Of a stretch of DNA of 23,322 nt, positions 337 through 23,292 are shown piece by piece. The notes under the pieces are model-generated. The model had not been told where the DNA came from. It saw only the letters and a program-made list of their open reading frames with translations, and searched no databases. Within the stretch, counting starts at the first letter, position 1. Every line of letters begins with the position of its first letter. The position numbers and the translations under genes were made by a program. Source of the DNA: a virus; the IMG/VR virus record IMGVR_UViG_3300034105_002992, positions 1-23,322 of that record; one strand, 5' to 3'.

Positions 337-402
337 TGTGGATAAACCTGTGGATAACTATCATATCAAACCATATTTCCAACGGTATTGACTTGTGGAT
401 AA
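337..402 (-). promoter_or_regulatory. Three perfect DnaA-box-like sites
   Basis: TGTGGATAA occurs at 337-345, 349-357 and 394-402, so the minus strand reads the classical DnaA box TTATCCACA three times. The first two start 12 bp apart. The second and third sit in a longer shared word, TGTGGATAACTAT. The third lies between the -35 and -10 of the promoter for the gene at 423, so a bound DnaA-like protein would probably block that promoter. Confidence 0.55.
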
Positions 403-416
403 CTATGTGATATCAT
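388..416 (+). promoter_or_regulatory. Leaderless promoter for the gene at 423
   Basis: TTGACT (388-393), a 17-nt spacer, then TATCAT (411-416) preceded by TGA (408-410). Six nt separate the -10 from the ATG at 423, so transcription should start at or next to the A of the start codon. No Shine-Dalgarno sequence is present. Confidence 0.65.
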
Positions 417-422
417 GAATAT

Positions 423-542
423 ATGGCACACCAATGTAACTTTGAATTAGACCTCGATGGACAAATCACCTGCTCTCTATGTGGGGCTATGGATGATGAC
501 ATGAAGCCAAGTATATTTGAATCACAAATAGACTTTGAGTAA
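423..542 (+). CDS. Small zinc-binding protein, 39 aa
   Basis: A 39-residue frame starting MAHQCNFELD. It has H3, C5, C17 and C20 (C-x11-C then C-x2-C-G), a likely zinc-binding set, followed by an acidic tail. The start is supported by a near-consensus promoter whose -10 ends 6 nt before the ATG. It is the first of several Cys-rich microproteins in this window. Function is unknown; a nucleic-acid-binding or adaptor role would be typical for phage zinc ribbons, but nothing here proves it. Confidence 0.6.
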   Translation: MAHQCNFELDLDGQITCSLCGAMDDDMKPSIFESQIDFE

Positions 543-576
543 GTCTATGTTCTTATAGGGGTAATGTGGGTCTTTC

Positions 577-605
577 TTGACTTCCCCCGAAAAATTTGAT
601 ATGAT
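577..605 (+). promoter_or_regulatory. Leaderless promoter for the operon at 612
   Basis: TTGACT (577-582), a 17-nt spacer, TATGAT (600-605) with TGA just upstream, then 6 nt to the ATG at 612. Near-consensus sigma-A-type promoter; the mRNA is expected to be leaderless. Confidence 0.7.
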
Positions 606-611
606 TAAACA

Positions 612-836
612 ATGATAACTAAAAAAAATAAAAAGCAAATGCACCAATACGAAGAGGATTTCATGTTTGCCTTAGAAAACCTCAAAAACGACATATCCAG
701 ATACCTGGAAGTTGCCAAGTCAGAGTTTGCATCTCATAATGACATCACTAGAACTATCGCTCTTATTAACTGGACTTCTCGAACTGTAGCAGAGAATAAA
801 GATGAACTAGAAGTTAAGATATTGGCAGCAGAGTGA
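612..836 (+). CDS. Hypothetical helical protein, 74 aa
   Basis: A 74-residue, lysine- and glutamate-rich protein, predicted by eye to be almost all helix, with no cysteines and no membrane segment. I do not recognise the family. The start is fixed by the leaderless promoter at 577-605. It heads a set of four genes (612, 838, 1115, 1351) separated by 1 nt or overlapping by 4-14 nt, which suggests one transcript. Its hydrophobic spacing would allow dimerisation. Confidence 0.65.
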   Translation: MITKKNKKQMHQYEEDFMFALENLKNDISRYLEVAKSEFASHNDITRTIALINWTSRTVAENKDELEVKILAAE

Positions 837-837
837 T

Positions 838-1128
838 ATGATTAAACAAGTCAGAACAAAGAACAATGCCTATAGTACTGTAAAGTATGACAAAGATGGA
901 AACATATTAACTCCGTCTAGGAAAAGGGAACTTAAGAAAGCAAAAGAGGAACCTATAAAGGGTCCTGAATCCATTAAGATTATAAGCCAGTATCCTAGTA
1001 TCTGCTCTGCTTGTAATGTTAGAATATCAGTTGGTACAAAGATATTATGGAACAAGAAAAGTAAAAGCACAAAGCATGTAAATTGTGTGTCTAAGTATAA
1101 AAAAGGTCCAAATAATGACAGAAGATGA
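838..1128 (+). CDS. Zinc-finger-like protein, 96 aa
   Basis: The first half is basic and probably flexible. The second half has C56-x2-C59 and H80-x2-C83 around I-S-V-G-T-K-I-L-W, a treble-clef or PARP-like zinc finger layout often seen in small phage proteins. The C-terminus is basic (KYKKGPNNDRR), which suits nucleic-acid binding. It begins 1 nt after the previous stop and overlaps the next gene by 14 nt, so the genes are probably translationally coupled. The specific role is unknown. Confidence 0.65.
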   Translation: MIKQVRTKNNAYSTVKYDKDGNILTPSRKRELKKAKEEPIKGPESIKIISQYPSICSACNVRISVGTKILWNKKSKSTKHVNCVSKYKKGPNNDRR

Positions 1129-1354
1129 AATTCTTTTAAAGATTAAAAATTTACGAACACCCAAAGGTGGCTTTACAAAAGCAGGCTTAGCATCAATAGG
1201 AGTTCCTTGGCCTCCTCCTAAAGGATGGAAACAACGATTATTGGATAAGGCAACAGATAATAAGTGTAGCCATACTTGGTATATGAGAGATCCAGGCATT
1301 CAGTGTAGTAAATGTTTTGTTCTTTGGGATAAATCTGATAGACTTAATGCATGA
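1115..1354 (+). CDS. Small phage protein with GVPWPPPKGW motif and zinc ribbon, 79 aa
   Basis: The ATG at 1115 is chosen because AAAAGG lies about 8 nt upstream; the same frame is open from 1085 but that start has no ribosome site. The N-terminal half contains TPKGGFTKAGLASIGVPWPP, a motif I associate with small uncharacterised phage proteins. The C-terminal half has C51-x-H53-x10-C64-x2-C67, a zinc-ribbon arrangement. It overlaps the next gene by 4 nt (ATGA). No function is assigned. Confidence 0.65.
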   Translation: MTEDEILLKIKNLRTPKGGFTKAGLASIGVPWPPPKGWKQRLLDKATDNKCSHTWYMRDPGIQCSKCFVLWDKSDRLNA

Positions 1355-2097: not shown

Positions 2098-2106
2098 TGG
2101 TATACT
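2098..2106 (+). promoter_or_regulatory. Extended -10 leaderless promoter for 2113
   Basis: TGG-TATACT with 6 nt to the ATG at 2113. There is no good -35 at the 17-nt position, as is common for extended -10 promoters. Confidence 0.6.
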
Positions 2107-2112
2107 TAATAC

Positions 2113-2196
2113 ATGAAACTATTAATCAGCATTTCAGCCGTAGCCTTGCTCACAACCATAATTGGAATTACTCTACAGATAGTGGTGTTTAAATGA
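2113..2196 (+). CDS. Single-pass membrane microprotein, 27 aa
   Basis: MKLLISISAVALLTTIIGIT followed by LQIVVFK: 27 residues, almost all forming one transmembrane helix, with a positive N-terminal lysine. The start is set by an extended -10 exactly 6 nt upstream. It overlaps the next small gene by ATGA. The function is unknown; it resembles other one-helix phage peptides such as the one at 9559. Confidence 0.5.
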   Translation: MKLLISISAVALLTTIIGITLQIVVFK

Positions 2197-2321
2197 TAAC
2201 TGGCGTATCCTGTAAGTTCTGTAACGAGCCTAATGCCACACAAGTAACCATTAAAGGGGCTTATTGCCTTAATTGTTATATAGGGATTACGAACGCTTCT
2301 TTAAATTCCCTGGAAAATTGA
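2193..2321 (+). CDS. Four-cysteine zinc-ribbon microprotein, 42 aa
   Basis: A 42-residue protein with C7-x2-C10 and C25-x2-C28 (CKFC ... CLNC), the classic two-knuckle zinc ribbon. The start overlaps the previous stop (ATGA), and its stop shares one nt with the halogenase start (TGATG), so it is co-translated with the halogenase. It may be a regulator or an unrelated passenger; there is no direct evidence for a role in halogenation. Confidence 0.55.
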   Translation: MITGVSCKFCNEPNATQVTIKGAYCLNCYIGITNASLNSLEN

Positions 2322-3913
2322 TGAAAACAGACAAAATAGTCATTGTTGGTGGAGGCTCTGCAGGTTGGATGACTGCCACAACTTTAATTAAAGAATTTCC
2401 TACAAAAGAAATTATGCTAATTGAATCTAAAGATGTTCCAACTGTTGGTGTTGGAGAATCAACAATTGCAGGTATTAGACAATGGGCACAGTTTATAGGA
2501 TTAAAAGAAGAATCTTTCTTTAAAGAAACAGATGCTACTATTAAAATGAGCATTAAGTTTACAGACTTTTATAAAAAAAATTCAGGTAGTTTTCATTACC
2601 CATTTGGTGCTCCAGTAGTAGATGGCAATAGGAATCCTTTTGCTGATTGGCATTTAAAAAAGTATTTAAACCCAGAAACTCCTGTAGAAGATTTTGTAAA
2701 TTGTTTGTTTCCATCTGCTGCATTATTCAATAATGACAAATATTCAGAAAACCTATATAGTGAATTTCATAATTTTAACCCTAAGAATGACATTGCATAC
2801 CATTTTGATTCCACCAAATTTGCTATATGGCTTAGGGATACATACTGTAAGCCTGCTGGTGTAACTCATATAGTTTCAACTGTTGTATCTGTTAATAAAG
2901 ATAAGGATGGAGTTAAAGATTTAGTTTTAGAAGATGGAAGTTTAATTGAAGCAGACTTATTTATTGACTGTACTGGTTTTAAAAGTTTATTATTGTCAGA
3001 GTCATTGTTAGAGCCTTTTATATCATACTCTGATATGTTGCCAAATAATCGTGCATGGGCTACTAGAGTTCCGTATATTAATGATGATGTAGAGATTCAA
3101 GGGTACACAAATTGCACTGCAATATCTAATGGTTGGTGTTGGAATATCCCATTGTTCTCAAGATTAGGTGCTGGATATGTATATTCAGATAAACATATCA
3201 CTCCAGAAGATGCCAAAGAAGAGTTCAAGCAGTATTTAATGTCTAATAAAATGACTATACCTCGCTCAAGAGAAGATGTTGAAAAATTAGAATTTAAAGA
3301 TATTAAAATGAAAGTTGGCATCCATGAAAGAACATTTGTTAAAAATGTAGTAGCAATAGGTTTGTCTGCTGGTTTTATAGAGCCACTAGAAAGCAATGGT
3401 CTTTTTACTGTTCATGAATTTCTCTTTAAACTTATAGATATTCTTCAAAGAGGAAGTATTTCTCAATTTGATAGAGATATGTATAATGTTTCAGTAAAAG
3501 ATTTATTTGATAGATTTGCTAAATTTGTTGCCTTACATTACGCACTTTCTCATAGAGAAGACAGTGAGTATTGGAAAGAAATAAATGATAAAGTTTTTAA
3601 AGATGGAAATGGCGATCCACACAGTCAGCATCACAATCGTACTGACACATTTTATAACATAATGTGGAGATATATGGAAAATAAAGGACATACATTGGGA
3701 CCTTCAGGTATTACATATATTGCAACTGGAATGAATCTTAACATGATAAATGACTATAGATTTATAGATATTAAAAATAGGATTAATCCTGAAATAATAG
3801 AAGATATAAATAAAGTTGTTCGTTTATGGGAAGAAAGAAAATTAAAGTGGAATGTCGCTTCAGGTAACTCTAAAACAATGAAGCAATACTTGCTAGAAAA
3901 GTATCATCAATAA
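2321..3913 (+). CDS. Flavin-dependent (tryptophan-type) halogenase, 530 aa
   Basis: The N-terminus VIVGGGSAGWMTA (G10-G15) is the FAD-binding dinucleotide motif. VGVGEST follows at 42-48. ATIKMSIKF (K75, K79) covers the region of the catalytic lysine. WCWNIP at 272-277 is an exact WxWxIP signature, which separates flavin halogenases from monooxygenases, and IEPLES at 353-358 corresponds to the conserved Glu-Ser beside the active site. These enzymes use FADH2, O2 and halide to form HOX, which passes to the lysine and halogenates an electron-rich substrate. A separate flavin reductase is needed and none is seen here. The start at 2321 is preferred because TGGAAAA lies upstream; the frame is open from 2273. 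Family assignment is firm; substrate (free or peptide-bound Trp, phenol, other) is unknown. Confidence 0.93.
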   Translation: MKTDKIVIVGGGSAGWMTATTLIKEFPTKEIMLIESKDVPTVGVGESTIAGIRQWAQFIGLKEESFFKETDATIKMSIKFTDFYKKNSGSFHYPFGAPVVDGNRNPFADWHLKKYLNPETPVEDFVNCLFPSAALFNNDKYSENLYSEFHNFNPKNDIAYHFDSTKFAIWLRDTYCKPAGVTHIVSTVVSVNKDKDGVKDLVLEDGSLIEADLFIDCTGFKSLLLSESLLEPFISYSDMLPNNRAWATRVPYINDDVEIQGYTNCTAISNGWCWNIPLFSRLGAGYVYSDKHITPEDAKEEFKQYLMSNKMTIPRSREDVEKLEFKDIKMKVGIHERTFVKNVVAIGLSAGFIEPLESNGLFTVHEFLFKLIDILQRGSISQFDRDMYNVSVKDLFDRFAKFVALHYALSHREDSEYWKEINDKVFKDGNGDPHSQHHNRTDTFYNIMWRYMENKGHTLGPSGITYIATGMNLNMINDYRFIDIKNRINPEIIEDINKVVRLWEERKLKWNVASGNSKTMKQYLLEKYHQ

Positions 3914-4185
3914 TGCAATGGGTTTTAGCAATTAAAACTATGTTTCATAAAGAGTATTGGAATAAAGCAAATACTATTGAATTTTTTGCGTTTATGGTTA
4001 AGTTAATGATTATATTCCCAGGCTTAATATTTGGAAAACAATTTTGGTGGCTATATATTTTTGCCTTACTGTCCAGTTTATCTTTAATCTGGTCGTCAAC
4101 AGTAAAAACTCTGCCTACTATAATTTGGTTTAATATTGGCTGGTCTATCCTTGCTATTGCTGCGATATTAAAATATTGGCTATGA
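3913..4185 (+). CDS. Small multi-pass membrane protein, 90 aa
   Basis: Starts on the A of the halogenase TAA (TAATG). Hydropathy by eye gives about three membrane helices: FFAFMVKLMIIFPGLIFG, WWLYIFALLSSLSLIW and IIWFNIGWSILAIAAIL. It is unusually rich in Trp and Phe (eight Trp in 90 residues). The family is not recognised. Tight coupling to the halogenase suggests it could anchor or supply that enzyme, but this is only inference from position. Confidence 0.6.
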   Translation: MQWVLAIKTMFHKEYWNKANTIEFFAFMVKLMIIFPGLIFGKQFWWLYIFALLSSLSLIWSSTVKTLPTIIWFNIGWSILAIAAILKYWL

Positions 4186-4226
4186 GTTACATTGTATACA
4201 CATAAATTCCTTGAAAAATTAGGCTA

Positions 4227-4235
4227 TGCTATAAT
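4227..4235 (+). promoter_or_regulatory. Extended -10 leaderless promoter for 4242
   Basis: TGC-TATAAT, perfect consensus -10 with TGn extension, then AGATCT (6 nt) and the ATG at 4242. TTGAAA lies upstream at 4211 but too close to act as a normal -35. Confidence 0.7.
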
Positions 4236-4241
4236 AGATCT

Positions 4242-4853
4242 ATGGGATATATAGTTAATAATATAGCAGTTGGTAATAATCCACAAGACATAGAGAGAAC
4301 TGAATCTTACAATAAGTTTTTTGAAACAGTTGGATCTTCTACAGATAACATAAAAGTTATTCCTAATTTTTTGTCTGAAGAACAGATTAAACATTTAATG
4401 GATTCTTCAGAAAAAGCACCAATGCTAAGTTTTGCATCTCAAAAAGATGATAAAGGTGAGCCTCTTAATTGGATGCATATGCATACAGGTATATTTGATA
4501 AATTTAAAATAATAGGTAAGATTAAAGAAGAATTAATTAAGGCATATGGATTTACCAATATAGTAGAAAAAGAACCAAAATTTCTTAAAGTTGTTAAATG
4601 GGAAAAGGGGTCTAGGTTAAATTTACATGTCGATGATCTTGGCTACATTACAGATAATGAAATAGCAACATTAGTATATTTAAATGATGATTACGAAGGT
4701 GGAGAAATAAGTTTTGAAACTCATGGAATATCAATGAAACCAAAAGTTGGAGATCTCTTATTCTTCCCTGGAAATTTACATTACCCTCATGAGGTTAAAG
4801 AGGTATTATCTGGAACTAGATACACCTTGCCTGTTTGGTTTACAATAGTATAG
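4242..4853 (+). CDS. 2OG-Fe(II) oxygenase (prolyl-4-hydroxylase-like), 203 aa
   Basis: The double-stranded beta-helix core carries the iron triad H129-V-D131 and H183 plus R193, which holds 2-oxoglutarate (GTRY). YLNDDYEGGEISF and KPKVGDLLFFPG are hallmarks of the P4Hc/PKHD branch. Such enzymes hydroxylate or otherwise oxidise protein side chains, nucleobases or small molecules using O2 and 2-oxoglutarate. The N-terminus holds VGSSTDNIKVIPNFLSEE, a pattern shared with all the other oxygenase domains of this window. All catalytic residues are intact. It has its own leaderless promoter; the substrate is unknown. Confidence 0.9.
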   Translation: MGYIVNNIAVGNNPQDIERTESYNKFFETVGSSTDNIKVIPNFLSEEQIKHLMDSSEKAPMLSFASQKDDKGEPLNWMHMHTGIFDKFKIIGKIKEELIKAYGFTNIVEKEPKFLKVVKWEKGSRLNLHVDDLGYITDNEIATLVYLNDDYEGGEISFETHGISMKPKVGDLLFFPGNLHYPHEVKEVLSGTRYTLPVWFTIV

Positions 4854-4855
4854 TG

Positions 4856-4861
4856 TATAAT
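4856..4861 (+). promoter_or_regulatory. -10 box of leaderless promoter for 4868
   Basis: TATAAT spanning the end of the upstream gene, then TAAAAC (6 nt) and the ATG at 4868. The preceding bases are GTG, so the TGn extension is off by one. Confidence 0.55.
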
Positions 4862-4867
4862 TAAAAC

Positions 4868-5134
4868 ATGGATTATACAGGTTCAGATAAACAAAATAAA
4901 ACAAGAAAATTATTAGATGGATCTGAAGTAAAAGATTATGATCACCCTATAGATTTAATATTGCACACAAAAGCACCAGGAAAATGGAAATTAATTGATC
5001 TTGAAACGGGACAAGAGTATCTTGGATCAGAAATATCTCATGAAACATTTGGAGAACTTCTAAGAAGCAAGGTCGCAAAGGCCAAGATAGGCTCTTGGTT
5101 TAAAACAAAGGGAAGAGTAATAAAAAATGCATAA
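4868..5134 (+). CDS. Conserved-looking phage protein, 88 aa
   Basis: Contains GKWKLIDLETGQEYLGS then ISHETFGELLRSKVAKAKIG and SWFKTKGRVIKNA. This W-x-x-I-D-L-x-T-G-x-x-Y pattern resembles a small uncharacterised family I recall from marine and T4-like phages, where function is unknown. The C-terminus is basic. It lies between two oxygenase genes, overlaps the next one by 8 nt, and is read from its own leaderless promoter. Confidence 0.6.
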   Translation: MDYTGSDKQNKTRKLLDGSEVKDYDHPIDLILHTKAPGKWKLIDLETGQEYLGSEISHETFGELLRSKVAKAKIGSWFKTKGRVIKNA

Positions 5135-6554: not shown

Positions 6555-6563
6555 TGGTAAAAT
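6555..6563 (+). promoter_or_regulatory. Extended -10 leaderless promoter for 6570
   Basis: TGG-TAAAAT, then AATTAT (6 nt) and the ATG at 6570. A weaker -10 than its neighbours but with the same geometry. Confidence 0.5.
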
Positions 6564-6569
6564 AATTAT

Positions 6570-7571
6570 ATGACTTATTTAACAAGGGATATTTTAGACT
6601 TTTATAGATTTGATAAAGAAAAAAACAAAGAATATTTGACAAAACATTTTTCAAACACTAATATTGTTGGACTGCACAATCCTAATTCCACAATAGTTTT
6701 TGACAGCATTAATGTTTTTGACAAGGCCAACGTTGTAACTGTTGATGATGACAATACATACGAAATTAATAAATATGGTTTTCGTGGAGAAATTTATGAA
6801 AATTCAGACGCAATAGCATCTGGTTGTTCTATAACTTTTGGACTTGGCGTTCCAGAGGAGGCAAGATGGACAAATATTTTAAGCAACCAAATTAATAAAA
6901 ATATCATTAATTTAGGCGTTGAAGGAGCATCTGTAAAAAATGTTTGTACTAATATTATTAAATATTGCATGAATAATAAAATGCCAAAAGAAATTTTTTG
7001 TTTATTTCCAGATTTTTTTAGAAGCATGGTTGTAATAGACAAAGAGTTTTATAAATCAGGATTAAGTAAACGGTATTGGGATGAATCAGATAATTTAATA
7101 CTAACTTTTTGCAATCCAAAAGTTAGCCAGTATAGTAAAGATCGTGTACATATGGAAATAAAAGATAAAAAAAATATAGAAGACTCTGTTTCTCCACATC
7201 AGTTAATATTAGATTCTATAAATTTTATTTATATTCTAGAATCATTTTGTTTAACAAATGGCATAAAATTATATTGGACAACATGGGATAATCCTAGTTT
7301 TAGAATTTTGAAAGAAATGTCCAAAATTAAAGATTTTAAATTAAAAAATTTTTCACAGTCTAATCCAGGTTATTCTCCTTCTGAATGTATTTTACACGAG
7401 AACTCTGAGTTTAACGATCATCCACAGTGGGAAAGAGGGTCTGATTACTCAATTATAAATAATAAAAAGACAAAAGATTATTCTCATCCAGGCATTCATT
7501 ATCATAATCATATTGCAATTTTATTTGATAATTTACGTAAACAAAAAAATTATGATATGATAGGTATATGA
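6570..7571 (+). CDS. SGNH/GDSL-like hydrolase, 333 aa
   Basis: ASGCSITFGLGV (S87) matches block I of SGNH hydrolases (G-x-S-x-T-x-G), NLGVEGAS matches the following Gly/Asn region, and D303-Y-S-H306-P near the end is the D-x-x-H that completes the catalytic set. These enzymes remove acyl groups from sugars, lipids or peptidoglycan, or act as acyltransferases. No signal peptide or membrane segment is seen, so it works in the cytoplasm or as a virion part. It lies between oxygenase genes and overlaps the next start by ATGA. A deacylase or acyl-transfer role in the same tailoring pathway is a reasonable guess. Confidence 0.75.
   Translation: MTYLTRDILDFYRFDKEKNKEYLTKHFSNTNIVGLHNPNSTIVFDSINVFDKANVVTVDDDNTYEINKYGFRGEIYENSDAIASGCSITFGLGVPEEARWTNILSNQINKNIINLGVEGASVKNVCTNIIKYCMNNKMPKEIFCLFPDFFRSMVVIDKEFYKSGLSKRYWDESDNLILTFCNPKVSQYSKDRVHMEIKDKKNIEDSVSPHQLILDSINFIYILESFCLTNGIKLYWTTWDNPSFRILKEMSKIKDFKLKNFSQSNPGYSPSECILHENSEFNDHPQWERGSDYSIINNKKTKDYSHPGIHYHNHIAILFDNLRKQKNYDMIGI
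7553..7561 (+). promoter_or_regulatory. Extended -10 leaderless promoter for 7568
   Basis: TGA-TATGAT inside the end of the SGNH gene, then AGGTAT (6 nt) and the ATG at 7568. The AGG in the spacer could also act as a weak ribosome site on the read-through transcript. Confidence 0.5.
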
Positions 7572-9372: not shown

Positions 9373-9393
9373 TTACAAATGAAATTAGCCATA

Positions 9394-9402
9394 TGCTATA
9401 AT
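9394..9402 (+). promoter_or_regulatory. Extended -10 leaderless promoter for 9409
   Basis: TGC-TATAAT, then TGAAGT (6 nt) and the ATG at 9409. TTACAA at 9373-9378 could serve as a weak -35 with an 18-nt spacer. Confidence 0.65.
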
Positions 9403-9408
9403 TGAAGT

Positions 9409-9552
9409 ATGATTGCCGTATACTCTGATATTATGAAAAGGCTTAATGGTGAAAAATGCCATTTCTGCAGCGAGGTTGCCCTATATAACGATATGGCTGG
9501 CTATAAACTTATCGGTGTATGCAAGAAACATTTAAACTATCACACAAGTTAG
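9409..9552 (+). CDS. Zinc-ribbon microprotein, 47 aa
   Basis: C17-x2-C20 and C38-x2-H41 (CHFC ... VCKKH) form a likely zinc site, with the spacing C-x2-C-x3-A-L-Y that also recurs in the duplicated protein at 11596. The start is fixed by a consensus extended -10 six nt upstream. No function can be assigned. It is followed 6 nt later by a membrane microprotein. Confidence 0.6.
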   Translation: MIAVYSDIMKRLNGEKCHFCSEVALYNDMAGYKLIGVCKKHLNYHTS

Positions 9553-9558
9553 GACAAT

Positions 9559-9645: not shown

Positions 9646-9646
9646 G

Positions 9647-10690
9647 TTAAGGCTTAGATCCAATTAATGCAATCTGTGCTTTTGCTATAGCCAATGCTGA
9701 TCCTGTAAGTGGAGAGTATTCCAATTTTTTGGCTGAAAGACTAGCGCATGAAGTGGCAGTATACTTAAAGAATCCTTTAATGATGTTTGCCTTATCACTT
9801 GCTTGCGTTGGTGCTAGGCCATAAGAGAACGAGGATATGTTGTAAGCCTTCTTATCCTTGTTGTTATAGTTTGGAACAATGATGCCATTTCCTTCAGGCT
9901 CAAAGTCACTTAAGAACGCAGATGCTGCCTCAGATGTAGGCTGCATAAATACACCAGCACCATTTTCAATAGATGCTTTAGCAAGATTTTGATTTGTAGC
10001 ATAAGAAGATTCCATATAGCCTAATGCACCATTTGTACGTGCAACCTGAGATGCCATAAGATTAGTTCCAGCAACAGAACTAAAAGTTCCCATAGGTAGT
10101 TGGCTTTTTGGAAATACCTGTGTAAAGGCTTTGTTTGGTGTTTTGGTCCAGATTGATGGAGCAATAGCACTAAGATATTCTGTTAATACCTGTGTAGTTC
10201 CAGAACTATCTGCACGATAGAAAACCATAATCTGCAAGTTTGGAAGTTTTGGCTTTACTTTCTTTATAGTATTATCTTTAACTATTTGAGGATCATTCCA
10301 TTTTGTTATATCCCCTGCAAAAATTTTAGCCAATGTTTCTTTCTTTAGTTGAATTTTACCTTTGTATCCATCAATTCTATATGCAATTGCAATAGGGCCT
10401 GCGACTAATGGAACATATACAAAATCTTTTGCTTTATTAATTTGTGAAGCAGCCACATCACTTGCTGCAAAATCAACAGTACCTTGCATAAACATATTAA
10501 TTCCAGCACCTGATCCCAGTGGTGTGTATTCTATGTTATGTCCAGAGGCTTTTCCATATTGAACACGGCATTCATTAATAAAGTTAGCAATGAATGATGA
10601 ACCAGAACCCGTAATTTGATCTGCATGGGCTGGTTGGGCGATGAGTAAAGATACAGCGATTGCTGCTACGATAAATCTAGAAGTCTTCAT
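9647..10690 (-). CDS. pstS: PstS-like periplasmic phosphate-binding protein, 347 aa
   Basis: A signal peptide (K2, R5, hydrophobic 6-19, A21-H-A23 before D24) suits signal peptidase I; there is no lipobox cysteine. The mature part shows TGSGSSF (27-33), GSGAGI (59-64), DFAASD (73-78), IFAGDITKWNDP (123-134) and YRADSSGTT (158-166), the phosphate-contacting motifs of PstS. The length is typical of the family. In the host it would feed phosphate to a PstCAB transporter; no transporter genes are in the window, so the phage protein would have to join host parts. Phage pstS is known from cyanophages as a starvation gene. It is alone on this strand with its own promoter at 10697. Confidence 0.93.
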   Translation of the reverse strand: MKTSRFIVAAIAVSLLIAQPAHADQITGSGSSFIANFINECRVQYGKASGHNIEYTPLGSGAGINMFMQGTVDFAASDVAASQINKAKDFVYVPLVAGPIAIAYRIDGYKGKIQLKKETLAKIFAGDITKWNDPQIVKDNTIKKVKPKLPNLQIMVFYRADSSGTTQVLTEYLSAIAPSIWTKTPNKAFTQVFPKSQLPMGTFSSVAGTNLMASQVARTNGALGYMESSYATNQNLAKASIENGAGVFMQPTSEAASAFLSDFEPEGNGIIVPNYNNKDKKAYNISSFSYGLAPTQASDKANIIKGFFKYTATSCASLSAKKLEYSPLTGSALAIAKAQIALIGSKP

Positions 10691-10696
10691 AATTTA

Positions 10697-10705
10697 ATAA
10701 TATCA
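10697..10705 (-). promoter_or_regulatory. Extended -10 leaderless promoter for pstS
   Basis: On the minus strand TGA-TATTAT is followed by TAAATT (6 nt) and the ATG at 10690. It shares a 79-nt divergent spacer with the promoter at 10755. No convincing Pho-box was found. Confidence 0.6.
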
Positions 10706-10754: not shown

Positions 10755-10763
10755 TGGTATTAT
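10755..10763 (+). promoter_or_regulatory. Extended -10 leaderless promoter for 10770
   Basis: TGG-TATTAT, then TATCAT (6 nt) and the ATG at 10770. Divergent from the pstS promoter. Confidence 0.6.
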
Positions 10764-10769
10764 TATCAT

Positions 10770-10967
10770 ATGTATTTTGCTAATCACGCTGCTGAGAAAA
10801 TATTTCAAATTCAAGACCTTCATAGAAAGTATGAAGAAAATACTGGCAGAAGTGCCATTCAAGATTTAATTACCATGAAAATTATACAGGGTGAAGCAGG
10901 CAGTGATTATAATATAAAAGTATATGAAAAGTGGACTACAGAGTATTATAAAAAAATAAGTGAATAG
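10770..10967 (+). CDS. Hypothetical protein, 65 aa
   Basis: A 65-residue protein starting MYFANHAAEKIFQIQDLHRK, mixed charge, probably helical, without cysteines or membrane segments. The start is supported by the leaderless promoter. I do not recognise the family. It is monocistronic as far as can be seen, with another promoter following at 10980. Confidence 0.6.
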   Translation: MYFANHAAEKIFQIQDLHRKYEENTGRSAIQDLITMKIIQGEAGSDYNIKVYEKWTTEYYKKISE

Positions 10968-10979
10968 CAATAAACCATC

Positions 10980-11008
10980 TTGACTTATATGTTAGTATAG
11001 GATATACT
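10980..11008 (+). promoter_or_regulatory. Leaderless promoter for 11015
   Basis: TTGACT (10980-10985), a 17-nt spacer, TATACT (11003-11008), then 6 nt to the ATG at 11015. Same -35 word as the promoters at 388 and 577. Confidence 0.7.
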
Positions 11009-11014
11009 TTATAT

Positions 11015-11350
11015 ATGGAATCATTACTATTAGCAATTGCATTGTTTTTGTCATCCCCCGCTGGACAAGATCCAAATAGGGAACTAATGTGGTTTGATGG
11101 ATGTCAAAATATTACAGAACAACAATTAGACAACTCAACCTGGCAATATTCTTGCGGGGATAATGATATGATAGAACCACAAACTATAGAAGAATGGGTG
11201 GAACCAAATGCGGAAATCGAACACTTTAGCCTCACAAAACAAACAAAAGCGTTACCTAAAAAACAAAAAACGTCTATCTCTAAAGCCAAGACTATCAAAG
11301 CAACAAAGACAAGAGGCATACGAAAGATTCATGCTTACAAGTCAAATTAG
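11015..11350 (+). CDS. Possible secreted or membrane-associated protein, 111 aa, overlapping the next frame
   Basis: A hydrophobic N-terminus (MESLLLAIALFLSSPAG) looks like a signal peptide or anchor, though it has Glu rather than Lys at position 2. Two cysteines in WFDGCQN and WQYSCGDND could form a disulfide. The last third is a Lys/Thr/Ala-rich basic tail. That tail (from 11208) overlaps a second frame that also looks coding. The start is well supported by a near-consensus promoter. The family is unknown. Confidence 0.6.
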   Translation: MESLLLAIALFLSSPAGQDPNRELMWFDGCQNITEQQLDNSTWQYSCGDNDMIEPQTIEEWVEPNAEIEHFSLTKQTKALPKKQKTSISKAKTIKATKTRGIRKIHAYKSN

Positions 11351-12863: not shown

Positions 12864-12966
12864 TTACTATATTTAAAAAAATTAAACTATTTTATTATTT
12901 ACTAAAAATAAGAAAAAGAAAAAATAATAATAGGTTTATATATTAATTTATTAGAAAAGGCATACA

Positions 12967-14403: not shown

Positions 14404-14421
14404 TTAATTAAAAATAATTAA
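14404..14421. terminator. AT-only inverted repeat between convergent genes
   Basis: TTAATTA-AAAA-TAATTAA is a perfect 7-bp palindrome between the carbamoyltransferase stop and the stop of the minus-strand gene. It has no G or C in the stem, so it would be weak. A bidirectional terminator is only a possibility. Confidence 0.25.
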
Positions 14422-14849: not shown

Positions 14850-15397
14850 TACTTATTAAATCCTTTTGGATCTAATAGGCTACCACTCCAAACTGATTTT
14901 GCTGCAACTGAGTCTGATTTGTATGTTCCACCACGACGCTTGTATTCTTGAACTACCCAAGAATTTGCAACGGCTGATGGATATACATCAAATTTATCTT
15001 TTGCTGCCTGTACAACTCTAGCATAAAGTTTTGGATTTGATGGAGTAGATCCACCACTTCTTGGTTTAATAAAATCAGCATAGTTTGGTTTCTTTGCCTT
15101 ATCAATTGATTCGTAATCTTCTTCCATATTAGAGTTATCCATTTCAGTATCTTTCATATCAACAACTGTAGCATCTTTATACATCATACCAATGCTGTAT
15201 GCTGTTGGTTCCCACATACCGCTTTCTTTTTCATAAATTCTAACAGACATTGCTGGATTTTCTGGTGGCATAGATTCTAAAGCATACTCTGATCCAGGTG
15301 TGCCTAATGTTCCGCCTTCATTCATGATGTGTTCTACAACTCCATGCATTACGCCTTCAGTTGTTTGCCCCATCACAAAACTTCCTTCGTATATCAT
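14849..15397 (-). CDS. Two-domain phage protein with KFDVYPSAVAN domain, 182 aa
   Basis: The N-terminal part (GVMHGVVEHIMNEGG, PGSEYALESMPPENPAMSV, WEPTAYSIGMMYKDA) resembles a domain found in actinophage proteins related to XkdF or capsid-assembly factors. An acidic linker (81-100) is followed by NPKLYARVVQAAKDKFDVYP and SAVANSWVVQEYKRRGG, a domain often appended to phage structural proteins. The family knowledge is from memory and not precise. W170-S-G-S-L near the C-terminus and Y3-E-G-S-F at the N-terminus echo the tail repeats of the next gene. A leaderless promoter sits just upstream. Confidence 0.65.
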   Translation of the reverse strand: MIYEGSFVMGQTTEGVMHGVVEHIMNEGGTLGTPGSEYALESMPPENPAMSVRIYEKESGMWEPTAYSIGMMYKDATVVDMKDTEMDNSNMEEDYESIDKAKKPNYADFIKPRSGGSTPSNPKLYARVVQAAKDKFDVYPSAVANSWVVQEYKRRGGTYKSDSVAAKSVWSGSLLDPKGFNK

Positions 15398-15403
15398 GTT
15401 TTT

Positions 15404-15412
15404 AGTATAGCA
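15404..15412 (-). promoter_or_regulatory. Extended -10 leaderless promoter for 15397
   Basis: On the minus strand TGC-TATACT is followed by AAAAAC (6 nt) and the ATG at 15397. It lies only 10 bp from the opposing -10 at 15423. Confidence 0.65.
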
Positions 15413-15419
15413 TATATTC

Positions 15420-15428
15420 TGCTATAAT
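15420..15428 (+). promoter_or_regulatory. Extended -10 promoter for the glycan cassette
   Basis: TGC-TATAAT on the plus strand. Transcription would begin near 15435, giving a leader of about 17 nt before the ATG at 15452. It is divergent from and overlaps the promoter region of 15397. Confidence 0.6.
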
Positions 15429-15451
15429 TGTAAAACTAACGATTGGATTTC

Positions 15452-17118: not shown

Positions 17119-17959
17119 ATGCTATTTATATTCATTTAATAAAGAAGACTGTGCTGCTGATAAGTGGGACTATGGACTTCTTAAAGAAATATTTGATAAA
17201 TATAATGTAGAACAGGTTAAGGTTAATTCTTTGCCAATAGAAGACAGAGCATTTGTTGTAATTCCTGGACCACAAAATATAGGACATGAAAAACATATAG
17301 CAAAAGAGTTACAAAATATATCTAGATTAGTTTTATTTATAACAGGGGATGAAGAAGGAGTCTTTGATATAGATAGAATAGAACATCCTAATGCAGAGAT
17401 TTGGATTCAATACCCTCATAAGAAACATGAGCAGTATAATAAATTTCCGATTGGTGTGCCACAGCATTTAAAAAATAATTTGCCTAATTATAAGACTAAA
17501 ATATATGATGCATTTTTTGGTGGACAAATTACACATCAAAGGAGACAGCAATTAGCACAAGTAATGCCATTGATTGAGAATGCCCTATACAAGCCTACAG
17601 ATGGCTTTGCTAAGGGAGATAAGCCGATTGACTACTACAACAACCTAATGAGTTCAAGAATTGCTCCTTGCCCTGCAGGGGCTGTAGTAATTGATTCTTT
17701 TAGATTGTTTGAAGCAATAGAAATGATGTCTTTGCCAATAGCAGATCTTAGAGATTCAAGTGGTTTAGAAGATGATTTTTATCAACGTCTTTTTAATGAA
17801 GTGGTTCCATTTTATAAAATAAAAAATTGGAACGACTTGCCTGTTATTGTCTCAGGTTTGTTAGAAGGCTATCCAAATAATATGCATACTGTGGTATGCT
17901 GGTGGATCAAATATAAAAGAGATTTTGGAATTAAGTTAATGAGGCAAATCAATGCATAA
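17105..17959 (+). CDS. Exostosin-like (GT47-type) glycosyltransferase, 284 aa
   Basis: The C-terminal half has SSRIAPCPAGAVVIDSFRLF-EAIEMMSLPI, matching the exostosin/GT-B pattern S-x-F-x-L-x-P-x-G ... R-x-x-E-A-x-x-x-x-x-P-I that contacts the sugar nucleotide. The N-terminal half is a plausible Rossmann domain (RAFVVIPGPQNIGHEKHIAK). The frame is open upstream to 17054, but ATG 17105 with GAGGT about 13 nt before it is more likely; it overlaps the FkbM gene by 14 nt. The family match is moderate and donor and acceptor are unknown. Confidence 0.7.
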   Translation: MNQSKCYLYSFNKEDCAADKWDYGLLKEIFDKYNVEQVKVNSLPIEDRAFVVIPGPQNIGHEKHIAKELQNISRLVLFITGDEEGVFDIDRIEHPNAEIWIQYPHKKHEQYNKFPIGVPQHLKNNLPNYKTKIYDAFFGGQITHQRRQQLAQVMPLIENALYKPTDGFAKGDKPIDYYNNLMSSRIAPCPAGAVVIDSFRLFEAIEMMSLPIADLRDSSGLEDDFYQRLFNEVVPFYKIKNWNDLPVIVSGLLEGYPNNMHTVVCWWIKYKRDFGIKLMRQINA

Positions 17960-18713
17960 GAATGATGTAACAATAATTTTAGCAACATCAATTGTTCCAG
18001 ATCATCCAAACACTGAAATGATAGAAGAAACAATCCATAGTATTAGAGCACACTTTCCAGACAATGAAATTATTATGCAAATTGATGGGTTGAGAAAAGA
18101 ACAGTTGCATAGAAAAAATGATTACGATGAATATAAAAATCGCATACTTTGGAAATGTTTACACGAATATAAAAATGTTTTGCCAGTTATTTTTGATCAG
18201 CATAGCCATCAAACAACAATGATGAGACAAACAATAAAAGAAATACAAACATCATTACTTTTATATGTTGAAGGAGATACACCTCTAACTCCAGATATAG
18301 AGATTGATTGGCAAAAATGTTTAGATATGATTGAGTATGGAAAAGCAAATACAATAAGATTTCATTTTGAGGCATCTATTCCAGAACCACACAAACACTT
18401 AATGTTTAAATTAGAAGATGAATTTTTACAAACTGCTCAATGGAGTCAAAGACCTCACTTAACTAAGGCTTCATACTATAGGAATATTATATTACCGCCA
18501 CTTGATGAATGTGCTTTTATTGAAGATAGGACTCATGGGATAATTCAAGATGACATCTTACCTTATAATGTTTTTAGTGAAGAAGGATGGGAAAAACACA
18601 AACTTTGGATATATCATCCAGAAGGAAACATTAAAAGATCATATCATCTAGATGGTCGTAAGGGTACACTTAAATATACAAGTGATGATGAGATTAGAGG
18701 ATATAAAGGATGA
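17952..18713 (+). CDS. GT-A-like glycosyltransferase, 253 aa
   Basis: Starts with VTIILATSIVPDHPNTEMIE then TIHSIRAHFPDNEIIMQIDG, the beginning of a GT2-like fold, and has LLYVEGDTPLTPD, where E-G-D-T stands in the position of the metal-binding DxD motif. The ribosome site GAGG is 7 nt upstream, within the previous gene. It overlaps both neighbours by 4-8 nt. Similar proteins exist in phage glycan cassettes. Donor and acceptor are unknown. Confidence 0.72.
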   Translation: MHKNDVTIILATSIVPDHPNTEMIEETIHSIRAHFPDNEIIMQIDGLRKEQLHRKNDYDEYKNRILWKCLHEYKNVLPVIFDQHSHQTTMMRQTIKEIQTSLLLYVEGDTPLTPDIEIDWQKCLDMIEYGKANTIRFHFEASIPEPHKHLMFKLEDEFLQTAQWSQRPHLTKASYYRNIILPPLDECAFIEDRTHGIIQDDILPYNVFSEEGWEKHKLWIYHPEGNIKRSYHLDGRKGTLKYTSDDEIRGYKG

Positions 18714-19750
18714 CACTTGGAATTATTGCTAGATCTGATAATACTGGATTGGGAAATCAAACACGGGAATTAGTTAAAATGCTTAATCCCGACAAAATAT
18801 TATTGATTGACTCAGAACACTTCAATGGCAATGAACAACACCCAGAATGGTATAAAGATTATAATGTAACAACTACATTGAGCGGGTTTCCAACAAAACA
18901 AGAATTAGTAGAATTTTTAAGAAACATAGATGTAGTGCTAAGTTGTGAAACTTTTTATAGACAAGATTTTTTACATTATGCTAAACGAAGAGGCATTAAA
19001 ACAATATTACAATATAATTTTGAATTCTTACTTAATATGTCTGTTCCAGAAGCAGAACTTCCAGATGTTTTACTTGCCCCAAGTTTATGGAACATAGAGC
19101 AAATAGAAAAAATGGTTGATGGAAGATGTAAAGTAATTCACCTCCCACCACCAACCGACCCAACCTTGTTTGAAAATGTTAGACAAAACAATATGTCAAA
19201 AGATCATAATAGATTATTGCACGTTGGTGGAAAGTTTGCAGCAAAAGATAGAAATGGAACTCAAACTGTTTTGCAAATGCTTAAGTATTCAAAAGCAAGT
19301 TATGAGTTAGTAATTACAACACAAAAGTTTCCAGAATTAGATTTAAAAGATTCAAGAGTTACCGTTAATAACAGTAATCCAGAAAATAGGGAAGAACTTT
19401 ATAATGGGTTTGATGCCATGCTTCTTCCAAGAAGGTATGCTGGTCTGTGTCTTCCAATGAATGAAGCACTCATTAGTGGACTTCCAGTATTCATGACAGA
19501 CATATCTCCAAACAATTTAATTCTTCCTAAAAAATGGTTAATAAAATCTGAACACATCAATAGTTTTCAAGCAAAATCTTTAGTAGATGTTTATGATGGA
19601 AATCCAGAACATCTAGCAAGTATTGTTGATGAGTATATGGATAACAAAGATAAGCGTGAAATGAAAGATTCTGCATTACAAATAGGACTAAATCATTTTG
19701 CTAAAAATAATCTAAAGGATAAGTATTTAGATCTTATCGCTCATATGTAG
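18710..19750 (+). CDS. GT-B (GT4-like) glycosyltransferase, 346 aa
   Basis: GIIARSDNTGLGNQTRELVK has the glycine-rich N-terminal loop of GT-B enzymes. PDVLLAPSLWNIEQIEKM and NRLLHVGGKFAAKDRNG mark the domain boundary, and RYAGLCLPMNEALISGLPVF carries the Glu motif of the nucleotide-sugar site. It starts within the previous stop (ATGA) with GAGGATATAAAGG upstream. It ends overlapping a convergent gene by 17 nt. It is the last gene of the plus-strand glycan cassette. Confidence 0.82.
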   Translation: MTLGIIARSDNTGLGNQTRELVKMLNPDKILLIDSEHFNGNEQHPEWYKDYNVTTTLSGFPTKQELVEFLRNIDVVLSCETFYRQDFLHYAKRRGIKTILQYNFEFLLNMSVPEAELPDVLLAPSLWNIEQIEKMVDGRCKVIHLPPPTDPTLFENVRQNNMSKDHNRLLHVGGKFAAKDRNGTQTVLQMLKYSKASYELVITTQKFPELDLKDSRVTVNNSNPENREELYNGFDAMLLPRRYAGLCLPMNEALISGLPVFMTDISPNNLILPKKWLIKSEHINSFQAKSLVDVYDGNPEHLASIVDEYMDNKDKREMKDSALQIGLNHFAKNNLKDKYLDLIAHM

Positions 19751-21692: not shown

Positions 21693-21814
21693 TAAACAAC
21701 CTTAAGGGTATTGCAACGAGTACAGCCAACATATGTATTGCCAGTAAATGGACATGCTCCAGCATCTACAAAGATATGTTTTTTAAATTTACATATAATT
21801 TTTTTTATAATCAT
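21692..21814 (-). CDS. Zinc-ribbon microprotein, 40 aa
   Basis: A 40-residue protein with C8, H13, C21 and C31-x2-C34 (CPFTGNTYVGCTRC). Its start overlaps the previous stop by ATGA and its stop overlaps the next start by 1 nt (TAATG), which strongly supports it as a real gene filling an otherwise odd gap in a packed operon. The function is unknown. Confidence 0.6.
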   Translation of the reverse strand: MIIKKIICKFKKHIFVDAGACPFTGNTYVGCTRCNTLKVV

Positions 21815-22041
21815 TTTACACCAGTCCTAACTAGCATGACTATAGCCCCATTTTCTTCTAAGGCTTTTTTAACCTTTACCATATATTCTACAGCAACTCT
21901 CTTATCTCTGTCAAATAAATTCATAAAACTTTTTTCATCTGCTCTTACTGTAATGAAATGCTCATTATCAATAATATCTACACCAAATCCTTGTGGAGGA
22001 GTAATAGATCTAACTGCTCGCTTCATTGCGTCTGTATACAT
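21811..22041 (-). CDS. Small conserved-looking protein, 76 aa
   Basis: MYTDAMKRAVRSITPPQGFG then DIIDNEHFITVRADEKSF and EYMVKVKKALEENGAIVMLV: an alpha/beta protein with helix-strand-helix-strand order. I believe related small proteins occur in other actinophages but know no function. It starts 2 nt after the WhiB stop and overlaps the next gene by ATGA. Confidence 0.6.
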   Translation of the reverse strand: MYTDAMKRAVRSITPPQGFGVDIIDNEHFITVRADEKSFMNLFDRDKRVAVEYMVKVKKALEENGAIVMLVRTGVK

Positions 22042-22042
22042 T

Positions 22043-22324
22043 TTACTTCATTGTCAGATTCTGCCATATTTCAGACCATTTAGATTTTGTTTTATGGCTA
22101 TTAAACTCTCTAGATATTTTACCTTTGTCTAAATAAATACCGCCCCAAATTCCATATTCTTTCTGTGATATTCCTACAGCAAAACAAGTTGCTGCGACTG
22201 GACACTTTAGGCAAACACTGTCAACACCATGACGAATATCTGGAGTTTCTTCATACTTATCAAAGAATAGATTTGTATCAAAGTCTTTACAGGCAGCACT
22301 TTCTTTCCATAAATGTTTATTCAT
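22043..22324 (-). CDS. whiB: WhiB-family iron-sulfur transcription factor, 93 aa
   Basis: Four cysteines in WhiB spacing (C12, C38-x2-C41-x5-C47) would hold a [4Fe-4S] cluster, and Y57-G-I-W-G-G62 is the turn that contacts sigma factor region 4. A basic segment follows (KTKSKW). WhiB proteins bind the host primary sigma factor and steer promoter choice; phage WhiB proteins (such as mycobacteriophage TM4 WhiB) interfere with host WhiB2 and superinfection. The start is placed at MNKHLWKES, overlapping the upstream gene by 8 nt; the frame is open 11 codons further. A weak AT-hook-free C-terminus suggests protein binding more than DNA binding. Confidence 0.93.
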   Translation of the reverse strand: MNKHLWKESAACKDFDTNLFFDKYEETPDIRHGVDSVCLKCPVAATCFAVGISQKEYGIWGGIYLDKGKISREFNSHKTKSKWSEIWQNLTMK

Positions 22325-22532
22325 GCTGTTTGTACTTATCTGGCATAGTCCAGCCATTACGGTTTGCTACATACCTTTTTTGAATATTCCATTTATTATT
22401 TTTATATACTCCGTTTTTTTCAAAGGCAGCAGAATCTAATGGAGTTAGTTCAAGAACATCCCAACCATCCCAAGACAACTTGCTATTCATGGAAACAATT
22501 GATTCCATTTGTTTTAAATTATTTACAATCAT
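22317..22532 (-). CDS. Small phage protein with WDGWDV motif, 71 aa
   Basis: LSWDGWDVLELTPLDSAAFE, then KNGVYKNNKWNIQKRY and GWTMPDKY: a Trp/Tyr-rich beta-type small protein that resembles uncharacterised actinophage proteins. A strong ribosome site, AAGGAGTAATA, precedes the start. It sits directly upstream of whiB and overlaps it by 8 nt. No function is known to me. Confidence 0.6.
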   Translation of the reverse strand: MIVNNLKQMESIVSMNSKLSWDGWDVLELTPLDSAAFEKNGVYKNNKWNIQKRYVANRNGWTMPDKYKQHE

Positions 22533-22541
22533 TATTACTCC

Positions 22542-22892
22542 TTAGTATTGGAATGTTCCAAATTCAAAATCTTGCGCTTGTGCAAGTTTTGCTACATTTG
22601 ATAGTGCCTGGTTTGGTTTTGATAAATAGGAAAAGTAATCAATCTCATGTAAATTTTCTTCGACCCATGTATAGTGAACCTTGATAAACTTAACTTTGAT
22701 TCCTCTAGCCTTTAGATTTCGTTCTGAAACATTGCAAAACTCAGAAGCAAAATCATTTACATTTGATGGTCCTAATGAATATACAATAAACTCATGATCA
22801 GTTTCTTTTAAACCAGACATCATTACACCCATAGAACGAAGGAAAACAGAATACTCATCGAACTCATTGGTTCCCTGTACTACGACCTTCAT
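22542..22892 (-). CDS. Rossmann-like protein, possibly SLOG family, 116 aa
   Basis: MKVVVQGTNEFDEYSVFLRS starts like a nucleotide-binding Rossmann fold, with FIVYSLGPSNVNDFASEFCN, KVKFIKVHYTWVEEN and FGTFQY. I compare it with SLOG (DprA/LOG-like) proteins, which bind nucleotides, but the match is by eye. ATG 22892 with GGAAAAAG upstream is preferred over ATG 22904. It overlaps the upstream gene by 29 nt. Confidence 0.5.
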   Translation of the reverse strand: MKVVVQGTNEFDEYSVFLRSMGVMMSGLKETDHEFIVYSLGPSNVNDFASEFCNVSERNLKARGIKVKFIKVHYTWVEENLHEIDYFSYLSKPNQALSNVAKLAQAQDFEFGTFQY

Positions 22893-23277
22893 TTCTTTTT
22901 CCATTCTTTAGGTGATCTAGTATGTCTAACATCTTTGCTACTTCTTTATTGTCCATATTTGTAAAGTCAATTGGTCTTGCATTTTCCCTATCGACTTCTC
23001 CTTCTTCTACATTTGCTTGATAAAACACATTGTTATTTACCCAGTAAGCAGTTGGGCCAACAACCAAAACACGAAAGGTATTTTTTTCTTTCAGTTTTGT
23101 AGTTTGAGATACACGTTTTATCTCTATACCTTCTGGCAAAAGGCTAGAAATAATACTGTGAATCCTAGTCTGACTATATTTAATTTTTGGTAAAACTTTT
23201 TTTTCTTGTTTCTTTACTGTATAAAGTATAGCCCAAATGCCATAAATTGTCAACAATAAAAGAACAATTTGATTCAT
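22864..23277 (-). CDS. Membrane-anchored protein, 137 aa
   Basis: An N-terminal membrane helix (IVLLLLTIYGIWAILYTV) and a charged soluble part with IHSIISSLLPEGIEIKRVSQ, FRVLVVGPTAYWVNNNVFYQ and NMDNKEVAKMLDILDHLKNG. It heads the minus operon with a leaderless promoter directly upstream. I think comparable proteins exist in actinophages but know no function. Confidence 0.6.
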   Translation of the reverse strand: MNQIVLLLLTIYGIWAILYTVKKQEKKVLPKIKYSQTRIHSIISSLLPEGIEIKRVSQTTKLKEKNTFRVLVVGPTAYWVNNNVFYQANVEEGEVDRENARPIDFTNMDNKEVAKMLDILDHLKNGKRNEGRSTGNQ

Positions 23278-23283
23278 GTATCT

Positions 23284-23292
23284 ATTGTATCA
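23284..23292 (-). promoter_or_regulatory. Extended -10 leaderless promoter for the WhiB operon
   Basis: On the minus strand TGA-TACAAT is followed by AGATAC (6 nt) and the ATG at 23277. It likely drives the whole run of overlapping genes down to 20813. Confidence 0.6.

Follow-up and report, generated by a model that had tools for sequence, protein, structure and literature searches.

Extended -10 promoters at a fixed distance from the start codon point to leaderless gene expression in a likely freshwater actinophage

Introduction

The promoters of the Thermus phage phiYS40 consist of a -10-like element only and are read by the host polymerase. Most of the middle and late mRNAs of this phage are leaderless (review PMC3594737). 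Among mycobacteriophages, the SigA-like promoters PL1 and PR2 of cluster O phages such as Corndog are predicted to give leaderless mRNAs, with PL2 placed alike (PMC4351075), and the same prediction has been made for the SigA-like promoter of Adephagia gene 90 (PMC11373665). In actinobacteria, a TANNNT hexamer about 12 bp upstream of the start most probably marks a leaderless gene, and such genes make up more than 20% of the total (Zheng et al. 2011, PMC3160421). In Mycobacterium tuberculosis, 26% are leaderless, and the TGn extension, found at 7% of TANNNT promoters, is tied to the strongest activity (PMC3898074). Here we analyse IMG/VR virus record IMGVR_UViG_3300034105_002992, whose full 23,322 bases are referred to as the window, and describe 14 genes in which a TANNNT hexamer, often preceded by TGn, ends exactly 6 nucleotides (nt) before the ATG.

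Compared with these systems, the window resembles phiYS40 in having phage transcripts predicted to be leaderless, but the host is probably of another phylum and the records show no sign of changed initiation factors or of a temporal class. With the cluster O phages and Adephagia it shares SigA-like promoters predicted to yield leaderless mRNAs; three and one such promoters, respectively, are named for those phages of mycobacterial hosts, as opposed to 14 in 23 kb here. Like the TA-led genes of actinobacteria, the phage genes have a TANNNT whose first T lies about 12 bp before the start, lack a Shine-Dalgarno (SD) motif and make up a substantial share of the gene set; the difference lies in the TGn extension, quantified below. 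A literature search, with most subscription journals outside its reach, found no report of leaderless genes in Nanopelagicales, and a term search of the available text of two papers on freshwater actinophages (PMC10202952, PMC6802176) did not return the word 'leaderless'.

Results

A hexamer at spacing 6 precedes 14 starts of the window

All 13 starts listed by the initial annotation were re-checked in the sequence, and in each of them TANNNT ends exactly 6 nt before the ATG (Table 1). As claimed, TGn adjoins the hexamer in 11 of the 13, the exceptions being 4868 and 11015, and the TTGACT elements at 388, 577 and 10980 all stand at a 17-nt spacer. A fourteenth site, TGA-TAGACT-6 nt-ATG at 1351 (+), had been overlooked; with it, TGn is present at 12 of the 14 sites. 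The boxes of 4868 and 7568 had both been placed inside upstream coding sequence, which is correct for 7568 (hexamer 7556-7561) but not for 4868, whose hexamer (4856-4861) lies beyond the end of the upstream gene at 4853. The hexamer of 1351 (1339-1344) is also inside upstream coding sequence.

Among 44 hand-curated starts of the window, TANNNT is found at spacing 6, counted from the end of the hexamer to the start codon, in 16; no other spacing between 0 and 39 exceeds 7, a count that spacing 11 reaches mostly through the TATGnTATAAT form. The extended box, TGNTANNNT, stands at spacing 6 in 12 of the 44 starts versus 1 of 986 non-start ATGs. Two further TANNNT hexamers at spacing 6, those of 21692 (-) and 17105 (+), were counted as chance because they lack TGn and are poorly conserved (kept in 5 of the 14 orthologues listed, out of 37 distinct, and in 7 of the 14 listed, out of 23 distinct, respectively).

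Since the curated starts had been picked during sequence reading, the count was redone with a gene caller blind to upstream signals, a simple in-house program rather than Prodigal, on relatives of the window. The close relative IMGVR_UViG_3300009161_000003 (G001; 112,922 bases) covers most of the window; the main collinear blocks (G001 19.0-44.0 kb) are about 88-98% identical. TANNNT was found at spacing 6 in 16/117 genes of G001, 12/108 of G002, 8/75 of G004, 5/104 of G005 and 7/111 of G003, and the extended box in 13/117, 5/108, 6/75, 3/104 and 3/111, respectively. The signal is therefore strong in G001; in G002 and G004 it is moderate, and in G005 and G003, in which counts at other spacings are just as high, it is weak. 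When 1,705 distinct genes of viral loci L002-L187 were pooled (loci with and without a WhiB-like gene together, duplicates removed only via the first 45 nt of the gene, and L178-L186 left out as a control group), TGNTANNNT occurred at spacing 6 in 91 genes, at 7 in 10, and in no more than 17 at each of the remaining spacings up to 30. By contrast, no peak was observed in the control loci L178-L186 (0/109 genes at spacing 6) or at the gene starts of the WhiB-less records G007 and G008 (0/94 and 1/98). The sharp peak that the initial annotation had expected in related genomes is thus seen in the pooled relatives and in G001, and only weakly in G005 and G003.

Small genes escape such counts. Of the 23 open reading frames (ORFs) listed for G001, the blind caller missed all 8 that are below 100 amino acids; in the window it missed 4 of 5 such ORFs. 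When ORFs of at least 25 amino acids following any extended box were counted instead, spacing 6 gave 23 in G001, 9 in G002, 7 in G004 and 12 in G005, and was the maximum of spacings 0-15 in G001, G002 and G005. Boxes 12-14 nt before an ATG, examined site by site, mostly looked like internal ATGs or chance; in one case, G005 68848, the extended -10 is followed by an SD motif inside the 13-nt gap. A raw count of the pattern over whole records (15 records) gave 27 versus 5 in the reversed control for G001, and 4 versus 9 for G006.

The sites have the features of promoters with +1 on the ATG

A -35 element matching at 5-6 of 6 positions, at spacers of 16-19 nt, was found in 17 of 75 sites versus 1.5 expected from shuffled upstream sequences, with a peak at spacer 17. 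In this 75-site set, as in the first-gene, accessory-gene and position counts given below, small ORFs were added via the extended box, which inflates the shares of TGn and ATG. The base at -1 is T in 66 of 87 spacing-6 starts versus 348 of 1,413 other ATG starts, where A is commonest (777), and the start codon is ATG in 99 of the 101 pooled starts with an extended box at spacing 6 or 7. Since transcription usually initiates on a purine that follows a pyrimidine, the T at -1 agrees with the A of the ATG being the first transcribed base. The same bias is seen in the bacterium Candidatus (Ca.) Planktophila versatilis, with a -1 pyrimidine at 41 of 53 ATG starts with TANNNT at spacing 6 versus 108 of 221 others.

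SD motifs are absent from the pooled genes with an extended box at spacing 6 or 7 (0/101), versus 616 of the 1,604 other genes. For TANNNT at the same two spacings, SD motifs accompany 0/16 genes in G001 versus 44/101 others, 2/17 in G002, 1/10 in G004 and 1/9 in G005 (p = 0.08 in G005), and 1/86 in Planktophila versus 83/264 others.

The register is conserved as well. For 12 window sites, 15397 being treated apart and 4868 having no orthologue, TANNNT stands exactly at spacing 6 in 45 of 47 orthologous upstream sequences, near-identical relatives included, and the remaining 2 fall in register once the start is re-read by eye. The bases of the box and of the gap vary among orthologues, but the 6-nt length of the gap is constant. 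Several orthologues of 15397 have an unrelated upstream sequence that again reads TGATATAAT-6 nt-ATG. Fixed spacing, lack of SD motifs, -1 pyrimidine, -35 enrichment and conservation of register are direct observations, and they uphold the proposal of sigma-A type promoters with +1 on the ATG. The sites are best read as promoters of this type from which RNA would start at the ATG, leaderlessness itself being deduced.

Related genes appear to swap between two modes of translation

The 15397 family displays both behaviors. Of 43 distinct orthologous upstream sequences, the script assigns TGNTANNNT at spacing 6 or 7 to 24, and inspection by eye adds L127 and L151. Another 9, including those of G005, L159 and L146, carry TGATATAAT (in L102, TGCTATAAT) farther upstream, with an SD motif, for example AGGAGG, after it. 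The script had flagged 10 of the latter kind, of which L141 was dropped as it looks like a within-gene alignment; 8 of the 43 were not judged, their alignment not ending at the start.

In the pooled spacing count, the extended box reaches 48.5 per nt at spacings 6-7, with SD motifs in 0/97 genes. A low second rise, to 10-12 per nt, follows at spacings 24-31, with SD motifs in 51/88. The other bins up to spacing 89 hold 0.7-7.5 per nt, and SD motifs occur in 592 of the 1,626 genes overall. Spacing-6 members occur in 21 of 170 protein families, and 11 of the 21 include members with an SD motif as well, which supports the earlier view that two translation modes coexist in one genome. Related genes thus appear, from their upstream sequences, to swap between leaderless-type and SD-type starts, and related bacterial genes have likewise been described as switching modes (PMC3160421).

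Actinobacteria share the spacing, and the phages differ in the box

The initial annotation had suggested a phage-specific system. In 400 kb of Ca. Planktophila versatilis, TANNNT stands at spacing 6 in 62 of 350 genes and at 7 in 24, versus 1-12 at other spacings up to 30; among putative first genes, the share with TANNNT at spacing 6 or 7 is 70/237 in Planktophila versus 16/68 in G001. Thirty actinobacterial loci of about 11-21 kb each (426 genes) gave 19 at spacing 6, 18 at 7 and 10 at 8, whereas the 19 loci treated as other phyla, L217 among them being named only 'bacterium', showed no peak (227 genes, 3 with the hexamer at spacing 6 and 6 at 7). In all, 49 of 57 loci were used for this comparison, the 30 being those named as Actinomycetota groups, with L188, L213, L226, L227, L230, L235, L237 and L241 left out. 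Because the peak recurs in Planktophila, in a proportion of genes similar to or above that in the phage, and in the pooled actinobacterial loci but not in the loci of other phyla, a system specific to the phages is not supported. The companion statement that leaderless mRNAs are common in actinobacteria agrees with PMC3160421 and PMC3898074 and with the Planktophila peak.

What distinguishes phage from bacterium is the box, which is often TGn-extended in the phages and a plain -10 in Planktophila. Among the blind calls, TGn precedes the spacing-6 box in 13/16 cases in G001, 5/12 in G002, 6/8 in G004, 3/5 in G005 and 3/7 in G003, giving 30/48 over the five records versus 3/62 in Planktophila and the 7% of M. 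tuberculosis (PMC3898074). A raw pattern count over the whole Planktophila genome (11 versus 18 in the reversed control) is uninformative because the boxes of this bacterium lack TGn; the peak appears in the gene-based count.

A phage-encoded sigma factor is not supported either: sigma-70 region 2 (Sigma70_r2) was found in none of 16 records, and one of 13 records had a Sigma70_r4 match, which fell below the cut-off. The C-domain of IF3 and the ribosomal protein S21 were each found in 0 of 13 records.

In the raw pattern count over whole bacterial genomes, the gammaproteobacterium Moraxella bovoculi 237 (G022, locus L202) stands far above the actinobacterial genomes, with TGNTANNNT-6 nt-ATG occurring 120 times versus 32 in the reversed control, possibly indicating many leaderless genes with an extended -10, or else a composition effect.

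The starts are concentrated in one part of the G001 genome

Uniform use of such starts in the phage, as first proposed, is not observed. In G001, 20 of the 64 genes up to 44 kb have a spacing-6 start versus 2 of the 60 beyond, in a gene set enriched for such starts by construction. Tail fibre matches and the auxiliary genes that the window also carries fall within these first 44 kb. Genes of the tail fibre region carry the signal, and the identified polymerase, helicase, head/capsid and portal genes lie outside, where it is rare, those for capsid, portal and polymerase being without it. An association of the starts with accessory genes is not significant, with 8/64 core versus 14/60 accessory genes in G001 (p = 0.16), 4/59 versus 5/52 in G002 and 4/56 versus 7/55 in G005.

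Because G001 has matches to a DNA polymerase, a DnaB-like helicase, a major head protein, a portal and a tail fibre, we regard the source as a large tailed phage. Annotated phages include no near match that our searches of the window found; protein searches against them gave fragmentary matches in 4 records, covering 23-26% of the query, and distant ones in 90 records, at about 30% identity in the 20 listed. The window encodes a WhiB-like protein, a PstS-like phosphate-binding protein, a carbamoyltransferase, a thioredoxin and a pyrimidine dimer glycosylase, and has family matches to tryptophan halogenase, 2OG-Fe(II) oxygenase, glycosyltransferase and methyltransferase. WhiB, found in 13 of the 16 records examined, the window counted, is described as confined to actinobacteria and serves as a marker of their phages (PMC10202952, PMC6802176). 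The top cellular PstS matches found are an Actinomycetota metagenome-assembled genome (MAG), Ca. Planktophila versatilis and a Microbacteriaceae MAG, at 35-36% identity. These matches suggest that the host is likely an actinobacterium, probably of fresh water.

The block 2321-19750, in which the tryptophan halogenase, 2OG-Fe(II) oxygenase, carbamoyltransferase, glycosyltransferase and methyltransferase matches fall, might serve to alter a sugar or a surface structure; in G001 a second match to halogenase is found at 70.0-71.5 kb. The 2OG-Fe(II) oxygenase matches are the first gene of 7568-9372, the gene 4242-4853 and the C-terminal part of 5127-6554. The three adjacent genes of 7568-9372 cross-align with each other's G001 counterparts and look like tandem copies.

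The sequence at 337-402, just 5' of gene 423, holds three perfect DnaA boxes (TTATCCACA on the - strand), a number reached by 0 of 100 shuffles. One of them sits in the -35/-10 spacer of the 423 promoter, which holds the DnaA-box-like TGTGGATAA (394-402). Relatives also have such boxes, four in G001 (19360-19562) and three in G005 (23693-23747). The cluster is a candidate replication origin or DnaA-controlled promoter.

Table 1. Putative promoters of the window and the WhiB-like gene. Gaps are from the hexamer to the ATG; aa, amino acids.
Position	Strand	Elements	Start	Gene or context	Conservation
388..425	+	-35 TTGACT 388-393, 17-nt spacer, TGA + TATCAT, 6 nt	ATG 423		kept in L165, G001, G004 by script; L172 by eye (4 rows)
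577..614	+	-35 TTGACT 577-582, 17-nt spacer, TGA + TATGAT, 6 nt	ATG 612		kept in G005 (1/1 orthologues); present in G001
1336..1353	+	TGA + TAGACT, 6 nt	ATG 1351	within upstream coding sequence 1115-1354	kept 2/2 orthologues
2098..2115	+	TGG + TATACT, 6 nt	ATG 2113	27-aa ORF	kept 2/2, one without TGn
4227..4244	+	TATGC TATAAT, 6 nt	ATG 4242	2OG-Fe(II) oxygenase-like	kept 2/2, one without TGn
4856..4870	+	TATAAT without TGn, 6 nt	ATG 4868	intergenic	no orthologue found
6555..6572	+	TGG + TAAAAT, 6 nt	ATG 6570		kept 3/3
7553..7570	+	TGA + TATGAT, 6 nt	ATG 7568	within end of upstream coding sequence 6570-7571	kept 3/3
9394..9411	+	TATGC TATAAT, 6 nt	ATG 9409	47 aa	kept 6/6
10688..10705	-	TGA + TATTAT, 6 nt	ATG 10690	PstS-like phosphate-binding protein	kept 8/8
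10755..10772	+	TATGG TATTAT, 6 nt	ATG 10770	65 aa	kept 6/6
10980..11017	+	-35 TTGACT 10980-10985, 17-nt spacer, TATACT without TGn, 6 nt	ATG 11015		kept 3/3
15395..15412	-	TATGC TATACT, 6 nt	ATG 15397	182 aa	
23275..23292	-	TGA + TACAAT, 6 nt	ATG 23277	137 aa	kept 6/7 by script, seventh by eye
22043..22357	-			WhiB-like (Wbl) protein; marker of actinophages and, by speculation, a protein that binds region 4 of sigma-A	

Discussion

The observation is real and well supported, and it is of a known kind. We consider it very probable that the 14 sites are actinophage promoters of sigma-A type that yield leaderless mRNAs by the ordinary actinobacterial route. The host polymerase would recognise TGnTANNNT, an extended -10, together with a -35 element in about a quarter of cases, and start the RNA 6-7 nt downstream of the box, on the A of the ATG; the resulting leaderless mRNA would then be translated via the route that actinobacteria use for their own. 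The same type of promoter, placed about 24-31 nt upstream, would serve leadered genes with an SD site, so that the distance from promoter to start would decide the translation mode and related genes could swap modes. Four parts of this scheme are inferences: where the RNA actually begins, which sigma factor acts, how ribosomes initiate and which host is infected.

Several results weigh against this explanation. In the WhiB-containing record G003, the 7 TANNNT boxes at spacing 6 compare with 9, 10 and 8 at spacings 11, 15 and 22, and the 3 extended boxes at 6 with 5 at 15; in G005, the 5 called genes at spacing 6 compare with 7 at two other spacings, and in G004 the small-ORF count is higher at spacing 13 (8) than at 6. 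Raw counts hardly separate pattern from reversed control in the WhiB-containing G012 (4 versus 3) and G015 (2 versus 2), and exceed it in the WhiB-less G007 (7 versus 3) and G008 (6 versus 2). The relatives are not independent, 87 pooled spacing-6 genes representing 21 protein families, and the WhiB-like protein with the 35-36% PstS match is the whole basis of the host assignment. Lastly, 7568 and 1351 overlap upstream coding sequence, where translational coupling is possible.

This overlap also bears on a different reading, in which the promoters are real but the RNA starts a few bases off the ATG, giving leaders of 1-5 nt, or in which overlapping genes are translationally coupled. The 10 pooled genes at spacing 7 would suit such short leaders, but the sharpness of the peak at 6, the T at -1 and the near-universal ATG point to the A of the ATG as the first base, and we regard this reading as unlikely.

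A dedicated phage programme, in which infection would favour leaderless mRNAs through a changed ribosome or changed initiation factors, has a precedent in phiYS40, where IF2 is raised and IF3 lowered (review PMC3594737), and would agree with the clustering of the starts in one part of G001. We nevertheless judge it very unlikely, given that Ca. Planktophila uses the same signal at similar frequency, that neither the IF3 C-domain nor S21 was found in the 13 records, and that the polymerase, helicase, capsid and portal genes of G001 lie in the part that rarely uses the signal. An artefact of composition with no promoter, for which the AT-richness of the window (GC content 0.26-0.37 per kb, making TANNNT common) and the raw excess in the two WhiB-less records might speak, is rejected as practically negligible, given the single extended box at spacing 6 among the non-start ATGs, the missing gene-start peak in these same two records (37-38% GC) and the -35 enrichment at the 17-nt spacer.

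A bolder proposal can be added to the preferred explanation of ordinary sigma-A type promoters. The WhiB-like protein of the phage has sequence matches to PDB entries of WhiB1, WhiB7 and WhiB3 and retains the G-I-W-G-G turn, and WhiB1 and WhiB7 bind sigma-A region 4. By analogy, the phage protein might bind region 4 of the host sigma-A, weaken the -35-dependent promoters of the host and free polymerase for the extended -10 promoters of the phage, many of which would also set the ATG at +1 and which resemble the phage promoters of the extended -10 class in T4 and P23-45; the region 4 displacers of those phages, T4 AsiA and P23-45 gp39, affect extended -10 promoters less (PMC7403470). Speaking against it are the good -35 elements at about a quarter of the sites and the 18 of 48 spacing-6 boxes without TGn, and we hold the proposal to be unlikely. 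In the available text of the phage paper PMC10269906, WhiB and AsiA are both named only in the reference list. If true, WhiB would be the actinophage counterpart of AsiA and gp39, joining host shut-off to leaderless expression.

Taken together, these results extend leaderless expression, computationally, to likely freshwater actinophages and to Ca. Planktophila. Small phage genes with such starts are easily missed, and the 11 families of mixed mode are natural experiments on the evolution of translation mode. The use of an extended -10 by the phages and of a plain -10 by the bacterium offers a testable clue to how phages compete for polymerase.

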